Assembly: GCF_001696715.1 (NCBI RefSeq)
Contig: NZ_MBFM01000003.1
Span: 353,585 to 397,377, forward strand
Length of the DNA: 43,793 nt
Source of the DNA: Thauera phenolivorans
GTDB lineage: Bacteria; Pseudomonadota; Gammaproteobacteria; Burkholderiales; Rhodocyclaceae
Direction: 5' to 3'
Both the position numbers and the translations under genes were made by a program. This document shows positions 6,495 to 35,668 of this stretch, piece by piece. Every line of letters begins with the position of its first letter. The stretch's first letter is position 1. Under the pieces are notes generated by a model. That model was not told the DNA's origin, did not search any database, and saw only the letters and a program-made list of their open reading frames with translations.

Positions 6495-8474
6495 TCAGCG
6501 CATAGCGGCAGGGCTGGCCGCCTCGCCCGTCCGCTTGGAAAAGAAGCTCACCTTCTGCGCCACCACCGCCTCGCGCATCTTCGCGATGTGCGGCCGCATC
6601 GCGCCCACCACGTGCATCTCGCAGCGCTTGCAGTCGAAGCGCAGGGTCAGCGTCTCGCCGCCATTGACGAGTTGCATCGGGTCGGGGCGGATGCCCTTCA
6701 CTTCCTTGGGGCAGAGGTTGAAGCTGTAGCGCAGGCAGTGCTTGGTGATCATCAGCGAGACCTCGTCGGTCTCCAGGTTCTCCTCGTAGGCGGCGTCGAT
6801 GAGCTTGACGCCGTGCTTCGTGTAGAAGGCGCGTGCCCTGCCGTTGAGCACGTTGGCGAGGTAGCTCAGCGCGTCCTGCGGGTAGGGCACGGGCGGCTCC
6901 ACGGCGACGGCGCGCGGCGGTCGCGGGTGCGCCGCGCGCCGCGCGGCCTCGAGGCTTTCCACGGCCTCGCGGCGCAGCGCGTTGAGCTGGGCGGCCGGCA
7001 GGAAGGGCGCGGCCGGCAGCTCGAGGACGATCTCGCCCGGCGCGAACATGGTGTTGCCGAGCTTGGCGAGCTGCTCGCGGATCGACGCCAGCGCGCGCTC
7101 GGCGTGCTGCGCGGGCTCGAAGGGCACGACCAGGCGCGCGCTCGCGCTGACGCCGTCCTCGTCGCGGAGGCTGAGCGCGAAGCCGTCCCCGGTGGCGAGG
7201 AAGCGGGCGTCGACCCGCACGCGGCGCTCGGCCGACTTCTTCTCGAGCGCGCGCTCGAACGCGTGGTCGTGGTTGCGGAACACCGAGGTGCCGGGCACGA
7301 GGTCGACAGGCAGTGGCTCGGCGGGGAACACGCGGTCGATGCCCTCGCCGCCGCCGTCGGGCTCGGCGCGGTTGACCCGCAGGCCGGTGAGTTCGCCCCT
7401 GGGGCCGTACCAGGTGAGGCCGTCGCCATTGTGGATCGGGCTGGTGCGCTCGATGTCGAAGAACCTGCGCCCCGTGGTGTCTATCCTCGTTACCCGGCCG
7501 ATCGCCTCGCCGACGAACTTGGGCGACTCGAATGCCTCGATGCCGTGCTGGCGCTCGTTGGCGAAGTAGTCGGTGTAGCCGCGGTTGAAGGTCTTCTCCG
7601 CCTGCGGGGTGAATAGGAAGGTGGTGCGCCCGCTCGAGGCGCGGCGATAGCGCGGGCCCTCGGCATCGGGGAACTCGATGATCTCGTCGAGCAGGCCCCG
7701 GTAGTGGGCGGTGATGTTCTTGACGTAGGCCATGTCCTTGTAGCGGCCCTCGATCTTGAACGAACTCACCCCCGCGGCGGCCAGCGCGCGCAGGTTGGCG
7801 CTCTGATTGTTGTCCTTCATCGACAGCATGTGCTGGTTGCCGGCGACGGTGTTGCCGTCCTTGTCCTTGAGGTCGTAGGGCAGGCGGCAGGCCTGGGAGC
7901 ATTCGCCGCGGTTCGCGCTGCGCCCGGTGTGTGCATGGCTGATGTAGCACTGGCCCGAAAAGGCCACGCACAGCGCGCCGTGCACGAAATATTCGAGATT
8001 GCAGTCGGTGGCCTGCGCGATCTCCCTTACCTGCTGCAGGCTCAGCTCGCGCGCCAGCACGATCTGCGAGAAGCCCACGTCCTGCAGGAAGCGGGCCTTG
8101 CTCGCGTCGCGGATGTCGGTCTGGGTGCTGGCGTGGAGCTGGATCGGCGGCAGGTCGAGCTCGAGCAGGCCCATGTCCTGCACGATCAGCGCGTCGGCGC
8201 CGGCCTCGTAGACGTCCCACGCGAGGCGCCGGGCGGCGTCGAGCTCGTGGTCGTGCAGGATGGTGTTGAGGGCGACGAAAACCTTGGCGTGATAGCGGTG
8301 GGCGTGGGCAGCGAGGCGGGCGATGTCGGCGACGGCGTTCTCCGCCGCCGCGCGCGCGCCGAAGCCGGGGCCGCCGAGATAAACGGCGTCCGCGCCATGG
8401 TTGATCGCCTCGATGCCGATGTCGGCGCTCTTGGCGGGGGCGAGGAGTTCGAGATAATGACGGCCGTGGCTCAT
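6495..8474 (-). CDS. rlhA: U32 family protein, RlhA-type 23S rRNA C2501 hydroxylation
   Basis: A 659-residue member of peptidase family U32 (DUF3656-containing subgroup). E. coli RlhA (YdcP), of similar length, is needed for 5-hydroxycytidine at position 2501 of 23S rRNA. Visible hallmarks are LELLAPAKSADIGIEAINHGADAVYLGG at the N-terminus, FVHGALCVAFSGQCYISH with its two Cys, the GECSQACRLPYDL cysteines, SFKIEGRYKDMAYV, and late Cys in ITKHCLRYSFNLCPKE and CKRCEMH. These cysteines probably hold an Fe-S cluster. ATG 8474 is preferred over an in-frame TTG 18 bp upstream. Length favours RlhA over the shorter TrhP. Confidence 0.85.
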   Translation of the reverse strand: MSHGRHYLELLAPAKSADIGIEAINHGADAVYLGGPGFGARAAAENAVADIARLAAHAHRYHAKVFVALNTILHDHELDAARRLAWDVYEAGADALIVQDMGLLELDLPPIQLHASTQTDIRDASKARFLQDVGFSQIVLARELSLQQVREIAQATDCNLEYFVHGALCVAFSGQCYISHAHTGRSANRGECSQACRLPYDLKDKDGNTVAGNQHMLSMKDNNQSANLRALAAAGVSSFKIEGRYKDMAYVKNITAHYRGLLDEIIEFPDAEGPRYRRASSGRTTFLFTPQAEKTFNRGYTDYFANERQHGIEAFESPKFVGEAIGRVTRIDTTGRRFFDIERTSPIHNGDGLTWYGPRGELTGLRVNRAEPDGGGEGIDRVFPAEPLPVDLVPGTSVFRNHDHAFERALEKKSAERRVRVDARFLATGDGFALSLRDEDGVSASARLVVPFEPAQHAERALASIREQLAKLGNTMFAPGEIVLELPAAPFLPAAQLNALRREAVESLEAARRAAHPRPPRAVAVEPPVPYPQDALSYLANVLNGRARAFYTKHGVKLIDAAYEENLETDEVSLMITKHCLRYSFNLCPKEVKGIRPDPMQLVNGGETLTLRFDCKRCEMHVVGAMRPHIAKMREAVVAQKVSFFSKRTGEAASPAAMR

Positions 8475-8525
8475 GGGGTGGAAGTGGCGCAAGCGCTTGA
8501 TCGGAAAGGGCGCAATGATAGCGCT

Positions 8526-25919: not shown

Positions 25920-27611
25920 TCAGCGCTCGCCGTCGTGCTTCTTTAGGCGGTAGTTCAACTGCGGCCGGGTCATGCCGAGCAGGCGGGCGGCAGCGGCCAG
26001 ATTGCCGTTGGCGCGTTCGACCGCGCGGCGCAGCAGGCTCTGCTCGAAGTCTTCGAGCGGGATGCCGGCGTCGAGCAGGGCGTCGTGCACATCGCCTTCG
26101 GCAGCGACGGTGGGTAGCCGGGCCTGCGGCTCCCGAAGCTTGCCGTCGGCGCCGACACCGGCCTGCGGGGGCATGACTGGCGCGCCGCCGATGAAGAGGT
26201 GTTCCACCTCGATCCAGCCGTTGCCCGGCGCGAGGATCACGCCGCGTTCGAGCACGTTCTGCAGTTCGCGCACGTTGCCTGGCCAGTGCTGGGCCTTGAG
26301 CGCGTTCATCGCCTTGTCGGTGATGCCGGCGACGCGCTTGTCGTGCAGGCTGCAGAAGCGCGCGATCATGCCGTCGACGAGGGCGGGGATGTCGGCGATG
26401 CGCTCGCGCAGCGGGGGGATCGTGACCGGATAGACGTTCAGGCGGTAGAAGAGGTCGCGGCGGAAGCGGCCTTCCTCGACCGCATCGTGCAGATTCACAT
26501 TGGTCGCCGCGACCAGGCGCACGTTGATCTTGCGCGTCTGTTCGCTGCCGAGGCGCTCGATCTCGCCCTCCTGCAGCACCCGCAGCAGCTTGGCCTGGGC
26601 CGACAGCGGGAGTTCGCCAACTTCGTCGAGGAAGAGCGTGCCGCCGTCAGCGCGCTCGAACTTGCCCGCGCGCGCGGCGTGGGCGCCGGTGAACGCGCCC
26701 TTTTCGACGCCGAACAGCTCCGACTCGATCAGCTCGTCGGGCAGGGCCGCGCAATTGACCGCGACGAAGGGCGCGTCGCGGCGCGGGCTGAGGTCGTGCA
26801 GCGCATGGGCGAAACGCTCCTTGCCCACCCCCGTCTCGCCGAGCAGCAGCACGGTCACCTTGGTCGTCGCGGCTTTCACCACCAGGTCGTAGGCGTGCTG
26901 GAAGCCGGTGGAGCTGCCGATCAGGTCGGGAATGCGGCGCCGGCAGGCGAGGCTCTGGCGCATCGCTTCGACCTGCTCGCGCAACTCGAGCAGGCGGCCG
27001 ACGATCGAGTCGGCCTCGAAGTAGGGGGTGAACTCCTGGGCGTCGGGCCATTCCTCGACCGGCTTGCCGACGATCCGGCAGCGCTCCGCGCCGGCGGCGG
27101 CGCACTCGACCTCGCGGAAGGGGATGAAGCGGCCCATGAAGTAGCTGGTGAAGCCCGACGCGTAGCCGACCTGCATCCAGCACACCGGATGTTCGGCCTG
27201 GCCGAACTCCTTCAGGTGGACTTCGGCCTCCCACGCGTGGCTCCAGCGGAATTCCCCGTAGAAGTGGCCCTTCTCGACGTCGACCTCGAGCCGAACCGGG
27301 TCGGTGTGTACGCAGCCCTCGAGGGTGTGCAGCTGGGGGCCGACGAGGAAGGACTCGATCGTGGTAGCGTCGCCGCGCAGCTTGCGCGCGAGTTCGGCAT
27401 CGCGCTGGCCCGAGGCGAAGCCCATGCGGGTGAGGATGCGGCGCGCCTGCTCCATGCCGACCGATTCGATCAGCTCCTTGCGCAGCGCCGACAGCGCGGC
27501 GGTGTGGAGCAGCACCATGCGCTGTTCCCCGAGCCAGATCAAGCCGTCGTCGGGAGAGAAGCGCAGCATCTCGCGCAGGTCCGTACTCGGCGGATAGTGA
27601 ATGCTGCTCAA
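25920..27611 (-). CDS. dmpR: Phenol-responsive sigma-54 activator, DmpR/PoxR/MopR type
   Basis: A 563-residue enhancer-binding protein that activates the phenol hydroxylase operon when bound to phenols. The N-terminal sensor (XylR_N plus V4R) keeps the pocket and zinc residues known from MopR: His95 and Trp123 match MopR His106 and Trp134, and Cys144, Glu167, Cys170 and Cys178 match its zinc tetrad by spacing. The AAA+ domain has GETGVGKE (Walker A), the sigma-54 contact loop GAFTGA, and [12 protein letters not shown]. The C-terminal Fis-type helix-turn-helix is [26 protein letters not shown]. It is divergent from the ferredoxin gene; a sigma-70 promoter covered by a dyad lies upstream. Confidence 0.95.
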
Positions 27612-27751
27612 GACCGATCTCCTCCGTATCCCGTCTATGTGCGGGTTGTCAGGGTGTCTGGATGCGGACGTACGCGAACCGATGACGCGCGTGCGACTCC
27701 CGCATCCTACCGACCGGCACGAGCTTGTGGCGAACCCTGCCGGATCGCAAT

Positions 27752-27780
27752 AATATCGAGATTTTTAATCGATAGTTCAA
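27752..27780 (-). promoter_or_regulatory. Candidate sigma-70 promoter of dmpR
   Basis: On the minus strand TTGAAC (27780-27775) and GATATT (27757-27752) are separated by exactly 17 bp, about 140-170 bp before the dmpR start. It is the best promoter match in the dmpR-ferredoxin gap. A possible weaker plus-strand pair (TTGTGG at 27725, AATAAT at 27749, 18-bp spacer) could serve the ferredoxin. Confidence 0.45.
27754..27774. promoter_or_regulatory. Dyad TATCGA-N9-TCGATA, candidate operator (site 1)
   Basis: A perfect 6-bp inverted repeat with a 9-bp spacer, occupying the spacer and part of the -10 of the dmpR promoter and the probable start region of the ferredoxin transcript. It contains ATCGAGATT, a 9-mer that returns in two other promoter regions of this cluster. 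A protein bound here would control both divergent genes. Confidence 0.45.
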
Positions 27781-27870
27781 TCTTGCTTGATTCTCCTTCG
27801 GGACCGCGGCACAGTCATCGGCTGACGGGCCACCCGCGGGGGAGCGGCCAAAACCACGAGAACGAGGCAC

Positions 27871-28188
27871 ATGGATAAGCGGTTTTCCGTCCTGATCGAG
27901 AACACAGGGGAAAGATTCAACTGTGGCAGCAACCAGAATCTGCTGCGCGGCATGGAGGTACTCGGCCGCAGGGGGATTCCCGTGGGCTGCCGTGGCGGCG
28001 GTTGCGGGGTGTGCAAGGTGCACATCCTCAGCGGCGAGTATCACACCCAGCGCATGAGCCGGTCCTGCCTGTCGGTGGAGGAGGAGGCGGAAGGCATCGT
28101 CCTCGCCTGCAAGGCCTTCCCCGACAGCGACGTCACGCTGAGGGTGATCGGCAAGATGTGCAAGGCGGTGAACAACGTCGCCGCTTGA
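27871..28188 (+). CDS. dmpQ: [2Fe-2S] ferredoxin, DmpQ/XylT type
   Basis: A 105-residue plant-type [2Fe-2S] ferredoxin. Cluster cysteines are Cys40, Cys45, Cys48 and Cys80 (GCRGGGCGVCKV ... LACKAF). The segment IPVGCRGGGCGVC followed by LSGEYHTQRMSRS closely matches XylT, which re-reduces oxidised iron in catechol 2,3-dioxygenase and so protects it from substrate inactivation. In the classic dmp and xyl operons this gene lies directly before the dioxygenase; here it is a separate unit upstream of the sigma-54 promoter, divergent from dmpR and closed by its own terminator. Confidence 0.88.
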   Translation: MDKRFSVLIENTGERFNCGSNQNLLRGMEVLGRRGIPVGCRGGGCGVCKVHILSGEYHTQRMSRSCLSVEEEAEGIVLACKAFPDSDVTLRVIGKMCKAVNNVAA

Positions 28189-28213
28189 GCGCCGCCTCCA
28201 GCCTGCCGAAAGG

Positions 28214-28245
28214 GCCGCTTCCGGGAGACCGGGGCGGCTTTTTTT
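28214..28245 (+). terminator. Rho-independent terminator after the ferredoxin gene
   Basis: GCCGCTTCCGG-GAGA-CCGGGGCGGC forms a GC-rich hairpin with a small internal mismatch, followed by seven T residues. It isolates the ferredoxin transcript from the phenol hydroxylase promoter downstream. Confidence 0.85.
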
Positions 28246-28291
28246 CGTCTTGGCCAGGGGGTGCGGGTTGTTGCGGCGCAATAAACTGGAG

Positions 28292-28326
28292 TGATCAAAT
28301 GATCAGCTCAACTTGCCAATTGATCA
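28292..28326 (+). promoter_or_regulatory. Upstream activator sites for DmpR (two)
   Basis: UAS1 is TGATCAAATGATCA (28292-28305) and UAS2 is TTGCCAATTGATCA (28313-28326). Both resemble the XylR/DmpR enhancer consensus TTGANCAATTGATCAA. Their centres are about 21 bp apart, two helical turns, and lie roughly 115-140 bp upstream of the predicted sigma-54 start site, as expected for enhancer binding. Confidence 0.75.
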
Positions 28327-28363
28327 TTTGGTGACCTTATGAATCTATAAGACTGCTGATAAA

Positions 28364-28381
28364 TCTCGATAGAAATTGAGA
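28364..28381. promoter_or_regulatory. Dyad TCTCGAT-N4-ATTGAGA, candidate operator (site 2)
   Basis: An inverted repeat with 6 of 7 symmetric positions between the activator sites and the sigma-54 promoter. Read on the minus strand it contains ATCGAGATT, the 9-mer of sites 1 and 3. It lies in the AT-rich bend region where IHF commonly binds in such promoters, so a protein here could block looping. Confidence 0.4.
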
Positions 28382-28411
28382 ATTTGCGATTTAACAGCAC
28401 CTTATCGGAAC

Positions 28412-28427
28412 TGGCACGCGACTCGCT
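28412..28427 (+). promoter_or_regulatory. Sigma-54 promoter of the phenol hydroxylase operon
   Basis: TGGCAC at 28412-28417 is the -24 element. The GG at 28413-28414 and the GC at 28425-28426 are exactly 10 bp apart, as sigma-54 requires. The -12 element reads TCGCT rather than TTGCA, a mild deviation. Transcription should begin near 28438, about 42 bp before dmpK. Confidence 0.8.
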
Positions 28428-28479
28428 TTATAAGACGCGGCGACAGACTTCGCTGAACCAAATGGATGGAGTTCTGCAA

Positions 28480-28743
28480 ATGGAGAATGAAAAGCCCGCT
28501 CTCGACACCAGCCGCAAGTTCGTGCGGCTCATCGAGCGTCGCCCGGACGGCTTCGTGGAGTTCGAGTTCGCGATCGGCGAGCCGGAGCTCTACGCCGAGA
28601 TGCTGCTGCCGGCCGACGCCTACGAGGCGTTCTGCCAGACAAACGAAGTGATTTATCTCGAACCCCGCGACGAGTCCGCGGAAGACGACGGTTCCGGTCT
28701 CGACTGGAACCTGCACCAGGCAACCCACCAGCGATTCCGCTGA
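28480..28743 (+). CDS. dmpK: Phenol hydroxylase assembly subunit P0 (DmpK)
   Basis: An 87-residue protein, first gene of the hydroxylase operon. DmpK is needed to obtain active oxygenase in vivo, probably by helping iron loading or assembly of the diiron component, but it is not needed for turnover in vitro. The family signature FVEFEFAIGEPELYAEMLLPADAYEAFC is clear. ATG 28480 is chosen because GGAG lies 8 bp before it and the family length is about 90 residues; in-frame ATGs at 28462 and 28384 lack a good site. Confidence 0.9.
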   Translation: MENEKPALDTSRKFVRLIERRPDGFVEFEFAIGEPELYAEMLLPADAYEAFCQTNEVIYLEPRDESAEDDGSGLDWNLHQATHQRFR

Positions 28744-28775
28744 CAGCAAGACCCTGCAGACGAGGAGGAGAACTC

Positions 28776-29771
28776 ATGCAAATCGATTTGCGTACCGTGT
28801 CCATCAAGCCGCTCCGGCACACCTTCGATAACGTCGCGCGCCGCATCGGCGCCGACAAGCCGGCCTCGCGCTATCAGGAAGGCACGCTGGACATGCAGCA
28901 GACGGCCAACTTCCACTACCGGCCGACCTGGGCGCCGGAATACGACATCTATGACGCGTCCCGTACCGCGATCAAGATGGCCGACTGGTATGCGTTCAAG
29001 GATCCGCGCCAGTTCTACTACGGCGCCTACTGCCTGGCGCGTGCCAAGCAGCAGGAGACCGCCGAGGCGAACTTCGACTTCGTCGAGAACCGTGGCCTGG
29101 CGGGGACGCTGCCGGAGTCGGTGCGCGACACCGTGCTGAAGCTGCTGGTGCCGCTGCGCCACGTGGCCTGGGGCTCGAACATGAACAACGCGAGCGTCTG
29201 TGCCTACAGCTATGGCACCGGCTTCTCGCAGCCGCACATCTATCACTCGATGGACCAGCTGGGCATCGCCCAGTACATCACCCGCGTCGGCCTGCTGCTG
29301 GGCGATGTCCAGACCCTGGACGAAGGCAAGCGCGCATGGATGGAAGACGACGCCTGGCAGGGCCTGCGGCGCTTCGTCGAGGATTCCTTCGTACTCCAGG
29401 ACCCGTTCGAGCTGTTCGTGGTGCAGAACGTCGTCCTCGACGGCCTGCTTTACCCGCTGGTGTACGAAACCATCATCGATGACGTGCTCTCGAGCCAGGG
29501 CGGGACGCCGGTGGCGATGCTCACCCAGTTCATGACCGACTGGTTCACCGAGACCAAGAAGTGGGCCGATGCCACGGTGAAGATCGCGGCGGCCGAATCG
29601 GCCGAGAACAAGGCGATCCTGGGCAAGTGGCTGACCGACTGGCGTGATCGCGCTGCTGCCGCGCTGCTGCCGGTGGCCCGCATCGCCCTCGGCGACCGGA
29701 CCGACGAAGTCATGGGCGAAGTCGTCCAGCAATTCAATGCCCGCATGGCGAAAGCCGGCGTGGCCATCTAA
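28776..29771 (+). CDS. dmpL: Phenol hydroxylase oxygenase beta subunit P1 (DmpL)
   Basis: A 331-residue beta subunit of the (alpha-beta-gamma)2 phenol hydroxylase. It is related in fold to the alpha subunit but has no diiron site. Family segments include MQIDLRTVSIKPLRHTFDNV, YRPTWAPEYDIYDASRTAI, MADWYAFKDPRQFYYGAYC and QDPFELFVVQNVVLDGLLYPLVY. AGGAGGAG lies 7-8 bp before ATG 28776. It is 32 bp after dmpK and 12 bp before dmpM. Confidence 0.95.
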   Translation: MQIDLRTVSIKPLRHTFDNVARRIGADKPASRYQEGTLDMQQTANFHYRPTWAPEYDIYDASRTAIKMADWYAFKDPRQFYYGAYCLARAKQQETAEANFDFVENRGLAGTLPESVRDTVLKLLVPLRHVAWGSNMNNASVCAYSYGTGFSQPHIYHSMDQLGIAQYITRVGLLLGDVQTLDEGKRAWMEDDAWQGLRRFVEDSFVLQDPFELFVVQNVVLDGLLYPLVYETIIDDVLSSQGGTPVAMLTQFMTDWFTETKKWADATVKIAAAESAENKAILGKWLTDWRDRAAAALLPVARIALGDRTDEVMGEVVQQFNARMAKAGVAI

Positions 29772-29783
29772 GGAGACATCCGG

Positions 29784-30053
29784 ATGTCGACCGTTTTCCT
29801 CGCGCTGCAAACCAACGAAGACACTCGCCCGATCATCGAGGCGATCCTGCAGGACAACCCGCACGCGGTCTGTGACGAGCAGCCGGCGATGGTGAAGATC
29901 AACGCCGAGGGCAAGCTCGTCGTGCGGCGCGAGACGATCGAGGAGCTGCTCGGCCGTGACTACGACCTGCAGGAGCTGCAGGTCAACATGATCACCATGT
30001 CGGGCAACCTCGATCAGACCGACGACGAAATGATCCTGTTCTGGAAAAACTGA
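29784..30053 (+). CDS. dmpM: Phenol hydroxylase activator protein P2 (DmpM)
   Basis: An 89-residue cofactorless regulatory (MmoB-type) protein that binds the oxygenase and couples oxygen activation to substrate hydroxylation. It begins STVFLALQTNEDTRPIIEAI and contains the conserved DLQELQVNMITMSGNLDQTDDE. It lies 12 bp after dmpL with AAGGAG before the start. Confidence 0.95.
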   Translation: MSTVFLALQTNEDTRPIIEAILQDNPHAVCDEQPAMVKINAEGKLVVRRETIEELLGRDYDLQELQVNMITMSGNLDQTDDEMILFWKN

Positions 30054-30073
30054 TTCCTCGAGGAGACGAAATC

Positions 30074-31627
30074 ATGGATATGCAAGTTGCGAAGAAGAAG
30101 CTCGGTCTGAAGGAACGCTATGCGGTGATGACGCGCGGTCTGGACTGGACGCCGTCGTACCAGAAGATGGAGGACATCTATCCCTACATCGCTTACGAGG
30201 GCATCAAGATCCACGACTGGGACAAGTGGGAGGATCCCTTCCGCCTGACCATGGACGCCTACTGGAAGTATCAGGCGGAGAAGGAGCGCAAGCTGTACTC
30301 GGTGCTCGACGCCTACACCCAGGGTAACGGCCACCTCAACGTGACCGACGCGCGCTACCTCAATACCGTCAAGCTGTTCCTGAGCGGCATCAGCCCGCTG
30401 GAATATGTGGCGCATCGCGGCTTCGCCCACGCCGGCCGTCAGTTCCCCGGCCCCGGCCCGCGCGTCGCCTGCCTGATGCAGTCGGTCGACGAGATCCGTC
30501 ACGCGCAGACCCAGGTGCACGCCGTCTCGAACTACAACAAGTACTACAACGGGATGCACGACTTCCACCATGCGCACGACCGCGTGTGGTTCCTGTCGGT
30601 GCCGAAGTCGTTCTTCGACGACGCCATCACCGCTGGTCCGTTCGAGTTCATGGTCTCGATCGGCTTCTCGTTCGAGTACGTGCTGACCAACCTGCTGTTC
30701 GTGCCCTTCGTCTCGGGCGCGGCCTACAACGGCGACATGGCCGCGATGACCTTCGGCTTCTCGGCGCAGTCCGACGAAGCCCGTCACATGACCCTCGGCC
30801 TGGAAGTCATCAAGTTCATCCTCGAGCAGGATCCGGACAACGTGCCGATCGTGCAGCGCTGGATCAACAAGTGGACCTGGCGCGGCTATCGCGTGCTGAC
30901 CCTGGTCGCGATGATGATGGACTACATGCTGCCGAAGCGCACGATGAGTTGGAAGGAGTCGTGGGAGATCTACTTCGAGGAGAACGGCGGCGCGCTGTTC
31001 AAGGACCTCGCCCGCTACGGCATCACGATGCCCAAGTGCGCCGAGCACATCGCCCTCGAGAAGGATCACCTGTCGCACCAGGCCTGGAGCACCTTCTACA
31101 ACTACGCTGCCGCGTCGAACTTCCACACCTGGATGCCGGACGAGGACGAGATGGACTGGCTGGCGTCCAAGTATCCGAACAGCTTCGACAAGCACTACCG
31201 TCCGCGTTACGAGTTCTGGCGCGAGCAGGCCGCGAAGGGCAACCGCTTCTACAACAAGACGCTGCCCATGCTGTGCCAGACCTGCCAGATCCCGATGATC
31301 TTCACCGAGCCGGGCGATCCGACCAAGATCTGCTACCGCGAAGTGGACTACAAGGGCGACAAATATCACTTCTGTTCCGACCACTGCAAGGAGATCTTCG
31401 AGTACGAGCCGGAGAAGTACGTCCAGGCCTGGCTGCCGGTGCACCAGATCTACCAGGGCAACTGCTTCCCCGAAGGCACCGATCCGACCGTGGAAGGCTT
31501 CGATCCGCTCGCCGCGGTGCTGAAGTACTACCACCTCGAGAATGGTCGCGACAACCTCGACTTCGAGGGCTCGGAAGACCAGAAGAACTTCGCCGAGTGG
31601 CGTGGTCAGGCGACCAAGAACATCTGA
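30074..31627 (+). CDS. dmpN: Phenol hydroxylase diiron oxygenase alpha subunit P3 (DmpN)
   Basis: The 517-residue catalytic subunit, which hydroxylates phenol to catechol at a carboxylate-bridged diiron centre. The ligands are Glu110, Glu140 and His143 (VDEIRHAQ), then Glu201, Glu235 and His238 (SDEARHM); spacing agrees with toluene/o-xylene monooxygenase. The C-terminal part has a YHS-type zinc site (CQTCQIPMIF with CSDHCKEIF). The start is MDMQVAKKKLGLKERYAVMTRG, with GAGGAG before it. All ligands are present, so the enzyme should be active. Confidence 0.97.
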   Translation: MDMQVAKKKLGLKERYAVMTRGLDWTPSYQKMEDIYPYIAYEGIKIHDWDKWEDPFRLTMDAYWKYQAEKERKLYSVLDAYTQGNGHLNVTDARYLNTVKLFLSGISPLEYVAHRGFAHAGRQFPGPGPRVACLMQSVDEIRHAQTQVHAVSNYNKYYNGMHDFHHAHDRVWFLSVPKSFFDDAITAGPFEFMVSIGFSFEYVLTNLLFVPFVSGAAYNGDMAAMTFGFSAQSDEARHMTLGLEVIKFILEQDPDNVPIVQRWINKWTWRGYRVLTLVAMMMDYMLPKRTMSWKESWEIYFEENGGALFKDLARYGITMPKCAEHIALEKDHLSHQAWSTFYNYAAASNFHTWMPDEDEMDWLASKYPNSFDKHYRPRYEFWREQAAKGNRFYNKTLPMLCQTCQIPMIFTEPGDPTKICYREVDYKGDKYHFCSDHCKEIFEYEPEKYVQAWLPVHQIYQGNCFPEGTDPTVEGFDPLAAVLKYYHLENGRDNLDFEGSEDQKNFAEWRGQATKNI

Positions 31628-31688
31628 TCTGCTCGCCGCGGGCGCCCGCCGCGCCCGCGGCCACCTCAAGCTAGCAAGGAGACATGAC

Positions 31689-32048
31689 ATGGCAGTTGCC
31701 GCCGTCACCAAATACGAATTCGAACCGAAGGACAAGCTCGAGAATTTCCACGGTAACCAGCTGCTGTACATCGGCTGGGAGGACCACCTGCTGTTCTGCG
31801 CGCCCTTCGCCTTCCCCTTCCCGCCGACGATGCGTTTCGGCGACATCATCGACAACGTGCTGCCGGGCGCCTTCGGCTACCACCCCGATTTCGCCAAGAT
31901 CGACTGGAGCGAGGCCTACTGGTTCAAGTCGGGCAAGCCCTGGACGCCCGACTTCGACAAGTCGCTGGCGGACAACGGCCTCAAGCACAAGGACGTGATC
32001 CGCTTCCACACGCCGGGCCTGCACGGCATCAAGGATTCGTGCAACTGA
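31689..32048 (+). CDS. dmpO: Phenol hydroxylase gamma subunit P4 (DmpO)
   Basis: A 119-residue gamma subunit of the oxygenase. Family signature: FHGNQLLYIGWEDHLLFCAPFAFPFPP and FGDIIDNVLPGAFGYHPDFAKIDW. AAGGAG stands 7 bp before ATG 31689. The gap after dmpN (61 bp) holds a GC-rich imperfect hairpin without a T-run. Confidence 0.95.
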   Translation: MAVAAVTKYEFEPKDKLENFHGNQLLYIGWEDHLLFCAPFAFPFPPTMRFGDIIDNVLPGAFGYHPDFAKIDWSEAYWFKSGKPWTPDFDKSLADNGLKHKDVIRFHTPGLHGIKDSCN

Positions 32049-32127
32049 GGGTCTCTACCGACGGCGGCCGGTGCAAGCCGGTCGCCGCAAACGGCCCGAC
32101 CGAGAACCGAGACAACGGACAACAAGC

Positions 32128-33183
32128 ATGAGCTATGAACTGACCATCGAACCGATCGGCCAGACGATCGAAGTGGAAGACGACCAGACCATCCTCGACG
32201 CGGCGCTGCGTGCCGGCATCTGGTTGCCCCATGCGTGCTGCCACGGGCTGTGCGCGACCTGCAAGGTCGTCGTGGTCGACGGCGAAGTCGATCACGGCGA
32301 GGCCTCCAGTTTCGCCCTGATGGATTTCGAACGCGACGAGGGCAAGACGCTCGCCTGCTGCGCCACGCTGCAGAGCGACGTCACGATCGAGGCCGAGATC
32401 GAGGAAGAGCCCGACGCCGAATCGATCCCGGTGCGCGACTTCGAAGGCACGGTCACCCGGGTGGAGGACCTGACGCCGACGATCAAGGGCATCTTCATCG
32501 AACTCGACGAGCCGATCCATTTCCAGGCGGGCCAGTACGTCGATTTCGGCATCGAGGGCGGCGCCTACAGCCGCGCCTTCTCGCTCGCCAACCCGCCTTC
32601 GACCGGCCGCGAGATCGAGCTCAACATCCGCATCGTGCCGGGCGGCAAGGGCACGACCTGGGTGCACGAGAACCAGAAGGCGGGCGACCGTGTGAAGCTT
32701 GCAGGCCCCTACGGCCGTTTCTTCGTGCGCAAGTCGGCGCCCGAGAACATGATCTTCATGGCCGGCGGCTCCGGCTTGTCGAGCCCGCGCTCGATGATCA
32801 TCGACCTGCTCGAGCAGGGCGAGACGAGGAAGATCACGCTGGTCTACGGTCAGCGCAGCCGCGCCGAGCTGTACTACCACGACGAATTCCTCGCGCTTGC
32901 CGAGAAGTACCCGAACTTCAGCTACGTCCCGGCGCTGTCGGACGAGCCCGCCGAATCGGACTGGAACGGCTTCCGCGGTTTCGTGCATGAAGCGGCCAAG
33001 GCCCACTTCGACAACGACTTCCGCGGCAACAAGGCCTACCTGTGCGGACCTCCGCTGATGATCGACGCCTGTATCACCACCCTGATGCAGGGCCGGCTGT
33101 TCGAGCGCGACATCTTCATGGAGAAGTTCTTCTCCGCCGCCGACGTGCAGCAGGTACGCAGCCCCCTGTTCAGGAATATTTGA
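32128..33183 (+). CDS. dmpP: Phenol hydroxylase ferredoxin-NAD(P)H reductase P5 (DmpP)
   Basis: A 351-residue reductase that passes electrons from NADH through FAD and a [2Fe-2S] cluster to the oxygenase. The N-terminal plant-type ferredoxin domain has ACCHGLCATCKV with a final Cys in LACCATLQ. The FAD domain shows AYSRAFSLANPP, and the nucleotide domain MAGGSGLSSPRSMI, YGQRSRAELYY and YLCGPPLMIDAC. ATG 32128 begins the typical MSYELTIEPIG. Confidence 0.96.
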   Translation: MSYELTIEPIGQTIEVEDDQTILDAALRAGIWLPHACCHGLCATCKVVVVDGEVDHGEASSFALMDFERDEGKTLACCATLQSDVTIEAEIEEEPDAESIPVRDFEGTVTRVEDLTPTIKGIFIELDEPIHFQAGQYVDFGIEGGAYSRAFSLANPPSTGREIELNIRIVPGGKGTTWVHENQKAGDRVKLAGPYGRFFVRKSAPENMIFMAGGSGLSSPRSMIIDLLEQGETRKITLVYGQRSRAELYYHDEFLALAEKYPNFSYVPALSDEPAESDWNGFRGFVHEAAKAHFDNDFRGNKAYLCGPPLMIDACITTLMQGRLFERDIFMEKFFSAADVQQVRSPLFRNI

Positions 33184-33199
33184 GCTGGGTCAACAAATA

Positions 33200-33228
33200 T
33201 CGAGATTCTCGAACGGGGTCGAACGGGC
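33200..33228. promoter_or_regulatory. Perfect dyad (site 3) and tandem 10-bp repeats upstream of the dioxygenase
   Basis: TCGAGA-T-TCTCGA (33200-33212) is a perfect 13-bp dyad within ATCGAGATT. It overlaps two tandem 10-mers, TCGAACGGGG (33209-33218) and TCGAACGGGC (33219-33228). All lie in the 142-bp gap between dmpP and the dioxygenase gene, suggesting a separately controlled internal promoter. Confidence 0.45.
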
Positions 33229-33233
33229 ATGGC

Positions 33234-33239
33234 TATGAT
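33234..33239 (+). promoter_or_regulatory. Candidate -10 box of an internal promoter for dmpB
   Basis: TATGAT matches 5 of 6 consensus bases and lies 86 bp before the dioxygenase start, just after the dyad and tandem repeats. No good -35 is present, consistent with regulated or weak initiation. A perfect 6-bp stem (CCGGCC-TGGA-GGCCGG, 33282-33297) follows in the leader. Confidence 0.3.
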
Positions 33240-33325
33240 TCTTGCGGCTTCGAACTGAACCTTCGATCCAATTCTTTCCGACCGGCCTGGAGGCCGGCGG
33301 AGCCACCATCTGGAGGAGATCAAAC

Positions 33326-34255
33326 ATGGCAATGACTGGCGTTCTGCGTCCCGGGCATATCTCGCTGCGTGTCCTCGACCTCGAGCAGGGCATCAACCAT
33401 TACAAGAACGTGCTCGGGCTGGTCGAGACCGGCCGCGACAACCAGGGCCGCGTCTACTTCAAGGCCTGGGACGAGCGTGACCACAACAGCGTGCTGATCC
33501 GTGAGGCGGAGGACGCCGGTATCGACTTCTTCGCCTTCAAGGTCGCCGACAAGGCCACCCTCGAGAAACTCGATGCAGACCTGAAGGCCTTCGGTCTCAC
33601 CACCGAGCGCATCCCCGCGGGCGAAATGCTCGAGACCGGCGAGCGCGTGCGCTTCCAGGTTCCGTCGGGCCACTACATCGAGCTCTACGCCGAGAAGACC
33701 GACGTCGGCAACGGCCAGCCCTATGTGAACCCCGATCCGTGGGTCCCCGATGCCGAGCGTGGAATTGCGCCCACGCGCATGGACCACTGCCTGCTGTACG
33801 GCCCGGACATCGAGAAGGTGCAGGAGATCTTCGAGAAGGTGCTGGGCTTCTTCCTCGTCGAGCATGTGGTGATGGAGGATGGCAAGACCGACCTGGCGAT
33901 CTGGCTGTCGTGCTCGATCAAGGCCCACGACATCGCTTTCGTGCGCCACCCCGAGCCGAACAAGCTGCACCACGTCGCGTTCAAGCTCGACAGCTGGGAG
34001 AAGGTGCTGCGCGCGGCCGACCTCATGTCGATGAACCGGGTGTCGATCGACATCGGCCCGACCCGTCATGGCGTCACCCGCGGCACCACGATCTACGCCT
34101 TCGACCCTTCGGGCAACCGCTTCGAGACCTTCTGCGGCGGCTACGACTGCTACCCGGACGGCAAGCCGATCAAGTGGACCTGGGACGAAGTCGGCGCCGG
34201 CATCTTCTATCACGACCGTGCGCTGAACGAGCGTTTCCTCAGCGTCGTGTCCTGA
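33326..34255 (+). CDS. dmpB: Catechol 2,3-dioxygenase
   Basis: A 309-residue extradiol dioxygenase that cleaves catechol to 2-hydroxymuconic semialdehyde. Two vicinal-oxygen-chelate repeats are visible. Iron ligands His154 (TRMDHCLLYG), His216 (KLHHVAF) and Glu267 (GNRFETFC) are intact. The acid-base residues His201, His248 and Tyr257 correspond to XylE His199, His246 and Tyr255. ATG 33326 follows GGAGGAG. It closes the first phenol transcription block and is followed by a strong terminator. Confidence 0.97.
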   Translation: MAMTGVLRPGHISLRVLDLEQGINHYKNVLGLVETGRDNQGRVYFKAWDERDHNSVLIREAEDAGIDFFAFKVADKATLEKLDADLKAFGLTTERIPAGEMLETGERVRFQVPSGHYIELYAEKTDVGNGQPYVNPDPWVPDAERGIAPTRMDHCLLYGPDIEKVQEIFEKVLGFFLVEHVVMEDGKTDLAIWLSCSIKAHDIAFVRHPEPNKLHHVAFKLDSWEKVLRAADLMSMNRVSIDIGPTRHGVTRGTTIYAFDPSGNRFETFCGGYDCYPDGKPIKWTWDEVGAGIFYHDRALNERFLSVVS

Positions 34256-34271
34256 GGCAGGCAAATGAAAG

Positions 34272-34298
34272 GCGGTGCCGCGAGGCACCGCTTTTTTT
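34272..34298 (+). terminator. Rho-independent terminator after dmpB
   Basis: A perfect 8-bp stem GCGGTGCC-GCGA-GGCACCGC followed by seven T residues. It ends the dmpK-dmpB transcript between convergent genes. On the other strand the stem is followed by only a short CTTTCATTT, so it may help end the GntR transcript weakly. Confidence 0.9.
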
Positions 34299-34321
34299 CG
34301 CTTCGCGCTGCCGGTGCGATC

Positions 34322-35047
34322 TCAGTGCGTGGCGGGCTTGCCGTTGAGGACGTCGATCGGCATGCGCTTGACGGCGTCGAGGGTGCGCAGGATGTGCTCG
34401 GAGAGGATCGAGGTGGCACGGGTGACGTCGCGCGCCAGCGCAGCCTCGAACAAGGCCTGGTGTTCGGCATGGACATCGCGAGCGACCGGCTGGCGGAACA
34501 GGCTGAGGCGGCGGTAGCGCTCCGACTGCTGGTACAGGATGTTCTGGAAGTGACGGATCCAGCGGGAGGGGCAGGCAGCGATCAGGGTTTCGTGAAAGGC
34601 GCGGTTGCGCCGCTCCCACTCCTCGGTGGTGTCCAGATCACCCTCGGAAAGTTTCTGCTCCGCCCGCGACAGGCGGTGGAAGGAGGCAACCAGCGCGGCC
34701 TCCCAAGCGTCGTCCCCGCGCGCGAGCGACTGGCGCAGGGCCTCGGTTTCGAGCAGGACGCGGGTGCGGGTGATATCCTCGAAGTCGGCAATCGAGATGG
34801 GTGCGACGCGAAAGCCGCGCTGGCCCTGCGCCACCACCAGCGCGTCGGTCACGAGCAACTGCAAGGCCTCGCGCAAGGTGCCGGCACCGACTTCGTACTG
34901 ATCCTTGAGGTGTTCCACGCGGAGCTTCTCACCCGGCGGATGCACGCCCTCGATGATGTCGCGCCGCAGTCGCTTGTAGGCCGCCTCGACCAGGGTCTTG
35001 GGCTCGTAGGGGGCACTCGTTTCTGTTGCGCTGGCGATGTCGTTCAT
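34322..35047 (-). CDS. GntR-family (FadR/FCD subgroup) transcriptional regulator
   Basis: A 241-residue regulator. The N-terminal winged helix covers TLVEAAYKRLRRDIIEGVHPPGEKL to GAGTLREALQLLVTDALV. The all-helical FCD ligand domain has candidate metal residues Asn148, His152 (NRAFHETL), His196 (AEHQAL) and His218 (LSEHIL). It sits between the dioxygenase and the second catabolic block, like the AphS repressor in the Comamonas testosteroni phenol cluster, so a role as repressor of phenol genes is likely. It is divergent from the heme-binding-type gene. A TATACT -10 candidate (35089-35084) precedes it. Confidence 0.9.
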   Translation of the reverse strand: MNDIASATETSAPYEPKTLVEAAYKRLRRDIIEGVHPPGEKLRVEHLKDQYEVGAGTLREALQLLVTDALVVAQGQRGFRVAPISIADFEDITRTRVLLETEALRQSLARGDDAWEAALVASFHRLSRAEQKLSEGDLDTTEEWERRNRAFHETLIAACPSRWIRHFQNILYQQSERYRRLSLFRQPVARDVHAEHQALFEAALARDVTRATSILSEHILRTLDAVKRMPIDVLNGKPATH

Positions 35048-35083
35048 GGGGTGGAAGATGTACGGCGGATTGTAAGCAGTCGA

Positions 35084-35089
35084 AGTATA
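35084..35089 (-). promoter_or_regulatory. Candidate -10 box of the GntR gene
   Basis: On the minus strand this reads TATACT (5 of 6), 36 bp before the GntR start. The -35 region is weak. Site 4 (35123-35130) would lie around position -45 to -52 of this transcript. Confidence 0.35.
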
Positions 35090-35122
35090 GCCGAGCGTTG
35101 AAGAATAGGGAGTTTCCCGAAA

Positions 35123-35130
35123 TCTCGAGA
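35123..35130. promoter_or_regulatory. Palindrome TCTCGAGA, candidate operator (site 4)
   Basis: A perfect 8-bp palindrome within AATCTCGAGAATT, the fourth copy of the TCGAGATT core (minus strand). It lies 7 bp upstream of the -35 of the plus-strand promoter and between the two divergent genes. This is the natural place for an autoregulated GntR operator. Confidence 0.45.
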
Positions 35131-35137
35131 ATTGTTA

Positions 35138-35166
35138 TTGACGACGAGATTCAAGAGGTCTATCTT
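35138..35166 (+). promoter_or_regulatory. Sigma-70 promoter of the second phenol block
   Basis: TTGACG (35138-35143, 5 of 6) and TATCTT (35161-35166, 4 of 6) with a 17-bp spacer. It drives the gene at 35231 and probably dmpD and the genes after it. No sigma-54 element is visible here, so this block can be expressed independently of DmpR. Confidence 0.6.
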
Positions 35167-35230: not shown

Positions 35231-35668
35231 ATGAACATTGCCGTCCCGCAAGCGACCGTTTCCTGGCAAGCCGCCCATGCCGCGGTCGAGGCCGCGGTTC
35301 GCCATGCCGAGTCTCTGGGTGTGCTCATCAACGTCGGCGTGACCGACGTCGGCGGCAACCTGATCGCCTTCCTGCGCATGCCGGGCGCTTTCCCGCAGTC
35401 GATCCAGTTCGCGATCGACAAGGCCTACACCGCCGGTGGCTTCGGTTTCCCCACCTCGCAGTGGATGTCGGTCTTCGGCGACAACGAGGGCATGAAACTC
35501 GGTTTTTCGGCCCAGCCGCGCCTGATCGTGTTCGGCGGCGGTCTGCCGATCCGTGTCGATGGCCAGCTCGTCGGCGGTATCGGCGTGTCCGGTGCCTCCG
35601 AGGAGCAGGACGCCGAGTGCGCGCTCGCCGGCCTGCGCGCGATCGGCGCCGACGAAGTCGCAGCCTGA
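35231..35668 (+). CDS. GlcG/HbpS family (DUF336) heme-binding-type protein
   Basis: A 145-residue protein of the DUF336/HbpS-like fold. Family marks are AVRHAESLGVLINVGVTDVGGNLIAFLRMPGAFPQSIQFAIDKAYTA and the C-terminal GGGLPIRVDGQLVGGIGVSGASEEQDAECA. Such genes recur in aromatic catabolic clusters, including phenol clusters, but their function there is not established; some bind heme, others act as small enzymes. No signal peptide, so cytoplasmic. It is 19 bp before dmpD on the same transcript. Confidence 0.85.
   Translation: MNIAVPQATVSWQAAHAAVEAAVRHAESLGVLINVGVTDVGGNLIAFLRMPGAFPQSIQFAIDKAYTAGGFGFPTSQWMSVFGDNEGMKLGFSAQPRLIVFGGGLPIRVDGQLVGGIGVSGASEEQDAECALAGLRAIGADEVAA

Follow-up and report, generated by a model that had tools for sequence, protein, structure and literature searches.

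A repeated palindrome in the phenol cluster of Thauera phenolivorans resembles the operator of AphS/BphS-type GntR repressors

AphS is a described GntR-type repressor of phenol-breakdown genes, and repression by both AphS and PhcS has been reported (PMC3063778). A comparative study of betaproteobacterial aromatic regulons defines the operator of the AphS/BphS repressors as a 14-nt palindrome, AAATmTCGAkATTT; it also predicts AphS regulons in Thauera sp. MZ1T, Dechloromonas aromatica RCB, and Azoarcus sp. BH72, and AphS control of benR in Thauera and Dechloromonas (PMC6449761). In KKS102, BphS operators overlap the start site of promoter pE (PMC11448139), and HOPDA releases BphS (PMC11448139, PMC10282184). 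The subject here is a 43,793-nucleotide stretch of Thauera phenolivorans DNA (contig NZ_MBFM01000003.1, positions 353,585 to 397,377), hereafter the window, in which a short element recurs in four intergenic regions of a phenol cluster. Judged from its sequence, this element very probably is the DNA docking site of AphS.

Each of the four regions contains a 14-bp site resembling the published operator: TAATATCGAGATTT in the gap between dmpR and a ferredoxin gene, fdx (27751..27764, 1 mismatch to AAATMTCGAKATTT); AAATCTCGATAGAA ahead of the phenol hydroxylase gene dmpK, between the DmpR sites and the sigma-54 promoter and centred at about −70 (28361..28374, 3 mismatches); AAATATCGAGATTC in the leader of dmpB, which encodes catechol 2,3-dioxygenase (33195..33208, 1 mismatch); and AAATCTCGAGAATT in the gntR/hbpS gap, where its end lies 4 bp before the −35 box (35120..35133, 1 mismatch). 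Five matches are present in the window, the fifth (3 mismatches) being at 31733 in coding DNA, and five were reached in none of 100 shuffles. It is highly likely that a single AphS/BphS-type repressor of the GntR/FCD family, the product of gntR (34322..35047, minus strand), has the four intergenic elements as its operators. Operators matching AAATmTCGAkATTT stand upstream of gntR itself and of catabolic genes. Moreover, a XylR/DmpR-type AphR always accompanies AphS, and here dmpR (25920..27611) is present. The aphRS operon, usual and not obligatory, is absent: gntR lies about 6.7 kb from dmpR and is divergent from hbpS. The original prediction had placed one GntR regulator at all four sites, over the DmpR/sigma-54 switch; the comparisons below support that proposal, which also matches the AphS/PhcS literature. 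The arrangement was offered as new, with the known operator unrecognised, although it had already been predicted for Thauera sp. MZ1T and Azoarcus sp. BH72 (PMC6449761).

Related loci provide the main evidence. Of 100 loci that encode a relative of the GntR protein, the best 80 were retained (L012-L091), and 48 of these (L012-L059) plus the window were used for gaps; a gap was counted only if both genes were found and its length was 21-899 bases. Several of the loci come from unclassified metagenome-assembled genomes. Sites with ≤3 mismatches are present in all five kinds of gap: 11/11 dmpR/fdx gaps, the window included (shuffled gaps, 2%); 6/10 fdx/dmpK gaps (4%); 14/14 dmpR/dmpK gaps without ferredoxin gene (11%); 23/36 dmpP/dmpB gaps (3%); and 29/31 gntR/hbpS gaps (8%). 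Eight of the 13 dmpP/dmpB misses belong to the group L044-L059. At ≤2 mismatches the numbers are 9, 1, 11, 16, and 9, respectively. Control gaps hold almost none at ≤3 mismatches: dmpL/dmpN, 0/36; dmpN/dmpP, 2/35; dmpB/gntR, 0/22; gntR/dmpR, 0/15; hbpS/dmpD, 0/4; and dmpD/dmpF, 0/7. Thus, in the comparison of orthologous gaps that had been named as a check, the operators recur in phenol clusters and are nearly absent from the control gaps. Two loci carry an operator-like site about 170 bases 3' of a Phenol_MetA_deg gene (L018 at 4857, 1 mismatch; L037 at 4782, 0 mismatches), unlike the window, which has no ≤3-mismatch site after its own Phenol_MetA_deg copy.

The site also keeps company with the protein. 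The GntR protein scores above the cut-offs for PF00392 and PF07729, the GntR helix-turn-helix and FCD domains; its best NCBIfam match, CsiR, reaches 171 bits, below the curated cut-off of 218. The segment VGAGTLREAL in the helix-turn-helix is identical in 47 of the 48 loci L012-L059; of the more distant set, L060-L091 (32 loci), none carries it in this form. A site with ≤2 mismatches is held by 39 of the same 48 loci versus two of the same 32. Regulators of L044-L059 are 53-58% identical to the window protein and adjoin dmpR in 14 of 16 loci. BphS of Polaromonas naphthalenivorans CJ2, encoded ahead of bph genes, is 50.7% identical to it. A family sample comprised 121 genomes, 28 with an AphS-like protein (E up to 1e-60) and 93 without. 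Places with ≤1 mismatch average 1.78 per genome in the 27 with the protein (own genome excluded) versus 0.65 in the 93 without (Mann-Whitney p = 1.3e-5).

Within the 3.69-Mb genome, seven places match with ≤1 mismatch, five of them with the TCGA core intact: three in the window and two on another contig, C10. The first C10 site occupies the gap that separates an AraC-type gene from a divergent neighbour, beside benABCD genes, whose matches to BenA, BenB, BenC, and BenD all exceed the NCBIfam cut-offs. The second is flanked by benD on one side and, on the other, by a series of genes for catechol 2,3-dioxygenase and an aldehyde dehydrogenase and of dmpH and dmpE type. All five places therefore sit either in this phenol cluster or in the ben/meta-cleavage cluster, and the whole-genome scan that had been named as a check finds few equally good 14-mers elsewhere. 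The remaining two, on contig C7 (AAATCCCGAGATTT), lack TCGA and were rejected as operators; they are one site shown twice, because the scaffold has that stretch once before and once after a run of N. Two mismatches are found at four further places. One (C1:718226) is upstream of a second catechol 2,3-dioxygenase gene and beside a second XylR/DmpR gene; the surrounding region (C1:714000-722000) combines these two with a Phenol_MetA_deg gene. Another (C7:351989; L096 3990-4003) precedes by 58 bases a gene for a transporter; the top NCBIfam hit of this transporter is the aromatic acid/H+ symport family, with a score below cut-off. The last two (C1:151819 and C1:273818) were taken as background, having no aromatic genes around them by our own reading of the open reading frames.

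Exact direct repeats occur at several other places in this genome: L092 1-861, L093 5115-6056, L095 1-1374, and L097 1125-2103, with spacings of 561, 642, 1074, and 679, respectively, and a 10-base N run between copies. These probably are unmerged contig overlaps of the scaffold, duplicating genes and motif hits. The window itself contains no such repeats.

The genes around the operators are those of a phenol pathway. The gntR product (Pfam GntR + FCD) includes the VGAGTLREAL segment. On the minus strand, dmpR encodes a XylR/DmpR-type sigma-54 activator with XylR_N, V4R, Sigma54_activat, and HTH_8 domains. The plus strand carries the 2Fe-2S ferredoxin gene (27871..28188; Fer2); the phenol hydroxylase operon dmpKLMNOP (28480..33183), identified by Phenol_hyd_sub in its first gene and by L, N, and P orthologues in relatives; dmpB (33326..34255; TIGR03211 above cut-off); and an HbpS-like gene, hbpS (35231..35668; PF03928), which probably is the first gene of a lower operon. 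We take the remaining hydroxylase genes to bear the other dmpKLMNOP names on our own reading. A sigma-70-type promoter, TTGACG-17-TATCTT, stands ahead of hbpS (35138..35166, plus strand; promoter scan), and its TTGAC is conserved in relatives. Ahead of dmpB and dmpR in the window, the same simple scan gave no sigma-70 promoter. It scored the dyad of the dmpB leader, read on the minus strand, as terminator-like.

The hydroxylase promoter has the form of a DmpR-type sigma-54 switch, judged against consensus sequences: two upstream activating sites (28291-28306 and 28320-28335, plus strand; 3 and 4 mismatches in 16) and the −24/−12 promoter TGGCACGCGACTCGCT (28412..28427, plus strand; 1 mismatch). 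The activating sites are conserved in relatives. Going downstream, the order is two DmpR-type sites, then the operator, then the sigma-54 promoter. Taking the start site as 24 bases after the −24 G, all ten ferredoxin-type loci (the window included) have a TCGA-centred site, with 2 to 5 mismatches, centred at −69.5 to −71.5. In the dmpR/dmpK loci without ferredoxin the operator is centred at −52.5 in 11 of 14; these 11 also have a second site on the dmpR side (0-4 mismatches, at about −259 to −272).

One surprise comes from the related genomes: a further docking core stands at a distance of exactly 19 bases from the first. In the window, the dmpB leader has a second TCGA core, with poor flanks, 19 bp downstream of its operator (33219..33222), and is the sole exact match in the genome to ATMTCGAKA-N13-TCGA. 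The hbpS promoter has a decayed second core (ACGA for TCGA; 35144..35147) at the same distance, in the −35/−10 spacer. No second core at 19 bp is found at the dmpR/fdx and dmpK sites of the window. Across the related loci, 87 of 102 gaps have a TCGA-centred site (≤4 mismatches), and a TCGA stands 19 bp away in 44 gaps, five of which have one on either side (49 counts in all); other distances from 5 to 60 average 0.8, with a maximum of 4. By gap, the 19-bp TCGA is present in 27/31 gntR/hbpS, 11/36 dmpP/dmpB, 3/11 dmpR/fdx, 2/14 dmpR/dmpK, and 1/10 fdx/dmpK. The fuller module core-N9-TTGAC-N1-TCGA belongs to the hbpS promoter: it is present in 27/31 gntR/hbpS gaps versus 0/71 others (0/11 dmpR/fdx, 0/14 dmpR/dmpK, 0/10 fdx/dmpK, and 0/36 dmpP/dmpB).

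The pairing follows the protein family as well. Scored as presence per genome, a stricter module pattern occurs in 16 of the 28 family genomes with an AphS-like protein versus none of the 93 without (Fisher p = 8.5e-13), and any 19-bp pair in 17/28 versus 1/93. The pair was judged against a control spacing of 23 bp (0/28 with the protein, 2/93 without); a reversed-pattern control was not relied on because it gives few hits for this palindrome. The region ahead of CJ2 bphS holds two sites resembling the operator, each with 3 mismatches and spaced by 19 bp. Of the other relatives, two are on plasmids; a pair at this spacing, with 1 and 5 mismatches, is present in one of them and absent from the other. 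Some dmpP/dmpB gaps (L024, L025, L027, and L043) contain three TCGA cores at 19-bp steps, and in the L024 dmpB leader TTTGAC lies between the second and third. The 19-bp geometry was not found in the literature searched, and may stand in the original AphS/BphS papers or in supplementary site tables. Specifically, "19 bp" is absent from the main text of PMC11448139; the available text of PMC6449761 describes multiple sites and cooperative binding, with no mention of a 19-bp spacing or an operator-TTGAC-operator layout, its supplementary site tables being outside the search.

The simplest reading that these sequences suggest is that two AphS dimers bind the pair, one on each side of the −35 box. 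This would give a concrete model of promoter closure by AphS/BphS repressors. A broader possibility, offered tentatively and with rather less than even confidence, is that AphS acts in two modes of fixed geometry. At the hbpS sigma-70 promoter, two dimers on cores exactly 19 bp apart would form a lock enclosing the TTGAC box; 19-bp pairs without TTGAC are present at some dmpB, dmpR, and bphS promoters as well. At sigma-54 promoters, one dimer at −70 (ferredoxin-gene loci) or −52 (Rhodoferax-type loci) would replace the IHF bend rather than compete for an existing IHF site. The window's genome would then carry a half-decayed lock.

Presumably, AphS dimers occupy the TCGA-centred 14-bp palindromes when substrate is absent. 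An operator placed between the DmpR sites and the −24/−12 box, as at the hydroxylase promoter, could hinder the DmpR loop. At the hbpS promoter, a dimer would sit on an operator that stops 4 bp short of the −35 box, the second core of relatives falling in the −35/−10 spacer. Operators in the divergent gntR and dmpR gaps could give auto-repression and control of the activator, and that in the dmpB leader would control a putative internal promoter. The compound that frees AphS is probably a ring-fission product, by analogy with HOPDA and BphS. The known repressor layer, keeping phenol genes shut despite a ready activator, would thereby extend to this organism, and probably to the benzoate genes elsewhere in its genome.

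Could the element simply be a word picked after the fact from AT-rich gaps? The original prediction rested on a word chosen by eye, TCGAGATT, which is indeed present in all four gaps (27756-27763, plus; 28362-28369, minus; 33200-33207, plus; 35121-35128, minus), each copy intergenic as had been said. A fifth copy, missing from the original list, lies inside a long open reading frame (7993-8000, within 6495-8492, minus strand). The exact longer form ATCGAGATT occurs at 27755-27763, 28362-28370, and 33199-33207; the start originally given for the first of these was off by one base. Because it occurs 17 times in the genome, three of them in the window, the short word is not specific by itself. 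The five copies of TCGAGATT compare with 1.09 expected, and five were reached in none of 100 shuffles. Since this word was picked after the fact, a test of any 8-mer was added: only one of 2000 sets of dinucleotide-shuffled gaps had any 8-mer common to all four, and in the real gaps (GC 51-60%) TCGAGATT is the only one. The surmise that the repetition is unlikely by chance therefore holds, and with the conservation of orthologous sites and the match to an independently published motif (PMC6449761), chance becomes an exceedingly improbable explanation. The dyads with N9 and N4 spacers that had been drawn around the word fared less well: they have no common spacing, are not kept as such in relatives, and were rejected as the element. 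The conserved unit is the TCGA-centred 14-bp palindrome.

The sites might also be divided among regulators, with an FCD/GntR paralogue, BenR, or AphT binding some of them and the local GntR protein controlling only its own neighbourhood. Published networks do share targets among AphS, AphR, AphT, and BenR (PMC6449761). However, the next-best homologue of the GntR protein in its own genome is 31% identical, AphT has an odd palindrome of LysR type as its motif, and BenR belongs to the AraC family (PMC6449761), making such a division quite improbable. A different kind of factor, most simply IHF at AT-rich bends, is very improbable as the common ligand; the shared word would then be a by-product of AT-rich promoter DNA. 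In its favour, the dmpK copy sits where an IHF site is expected in XylR/DmpR promoters; the AphS gel-shift site at the AphS-repressed aphKLMNOP operon surrounds a putative IHF site, AphS being suggested to hamper IHF (PMC3063778); and in L017 an IHF-like match overlaps the operator. Yet 19 of 21 operator-bearing hydroxylase promoters have no match to the IHF consensus (≤1 mismatch, −110 to −30; a consensus rather than a matrix), and the palindrome tracks the presence of the AphS-type protein and stands also at the hbpS and dmpB promoters. The hydroxylase promoters that lack the operator (L020, L023, and L042) have an IHF-like match at −46, clearly above shuffles in two of the three. These data would allow the operator to stand in for the IHF site, so AphS would hinder the DmpR loop directly. 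Where the operator lies at the sigma-54 promoter is relevant to the published idea that IHF binding is hampered by AphS.

Several points weigh against assigning all four elements to one AphS-type repressor. The dmpK copy is the weakest (3/14 mismatches), and is equalled by the coding-DNA match at 31733. Among fdx/dmpK gaps, only 1/10 has a ≤2-mismatch site, and 4/10 have no site even at ≤3 mismatches. Three of the 14 dmpR/dmpK-type loci have no operator at the hydroxylase promoter, their counted site being nearer dmpR. The loci are mutually related, so their counts are not independent. The protein-less genomes still average 0.65 one-mismatch places. CJ2 BphS reads VSGGTVREAL, differing at 3/10 positions of the DNA-binding segment; it was the named AphS/BphS member used for comparison. 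Finally, the window's own genome has no exact 19-bp module.

The finding is real, and its substance is mostly known already, from work on AphS and PhcS as repressors, on HOPDA as the compound that frees BphS, and on the predicted regulons. The closest described systems, AphS and PhcS of Comamonas testosteroni TA441 and R5, share with this locus the operator type, the XylR/DmpR-type partner, the target operon, and the placing of the operator between activator sites and sigma-54 promoter. They differ in gene order: AphS usually is in an operon with aphR (PMC6449761), whereas here gntR is downstream of dmpB and divergent from the HbpS-like gene, as in 30 of the 32 loci L012-L043. In addition, the dmpB leader and the gntR/hbpS gap of the window contain operators as well. 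The predicted AphS regulons agree in motif and in targets, namely phenol genes and benR (PMC6449761); the C10 operators likewise lie upstream of an AraC-type gene by benABCD, and of a run of catechol 2,3-dioxygenase and dmpC,E,H-like genes. BphS of KKS102 and CJ2 differs in that it controls biphenyl genes and, in CJ2, carries a different DNA-binding segment.

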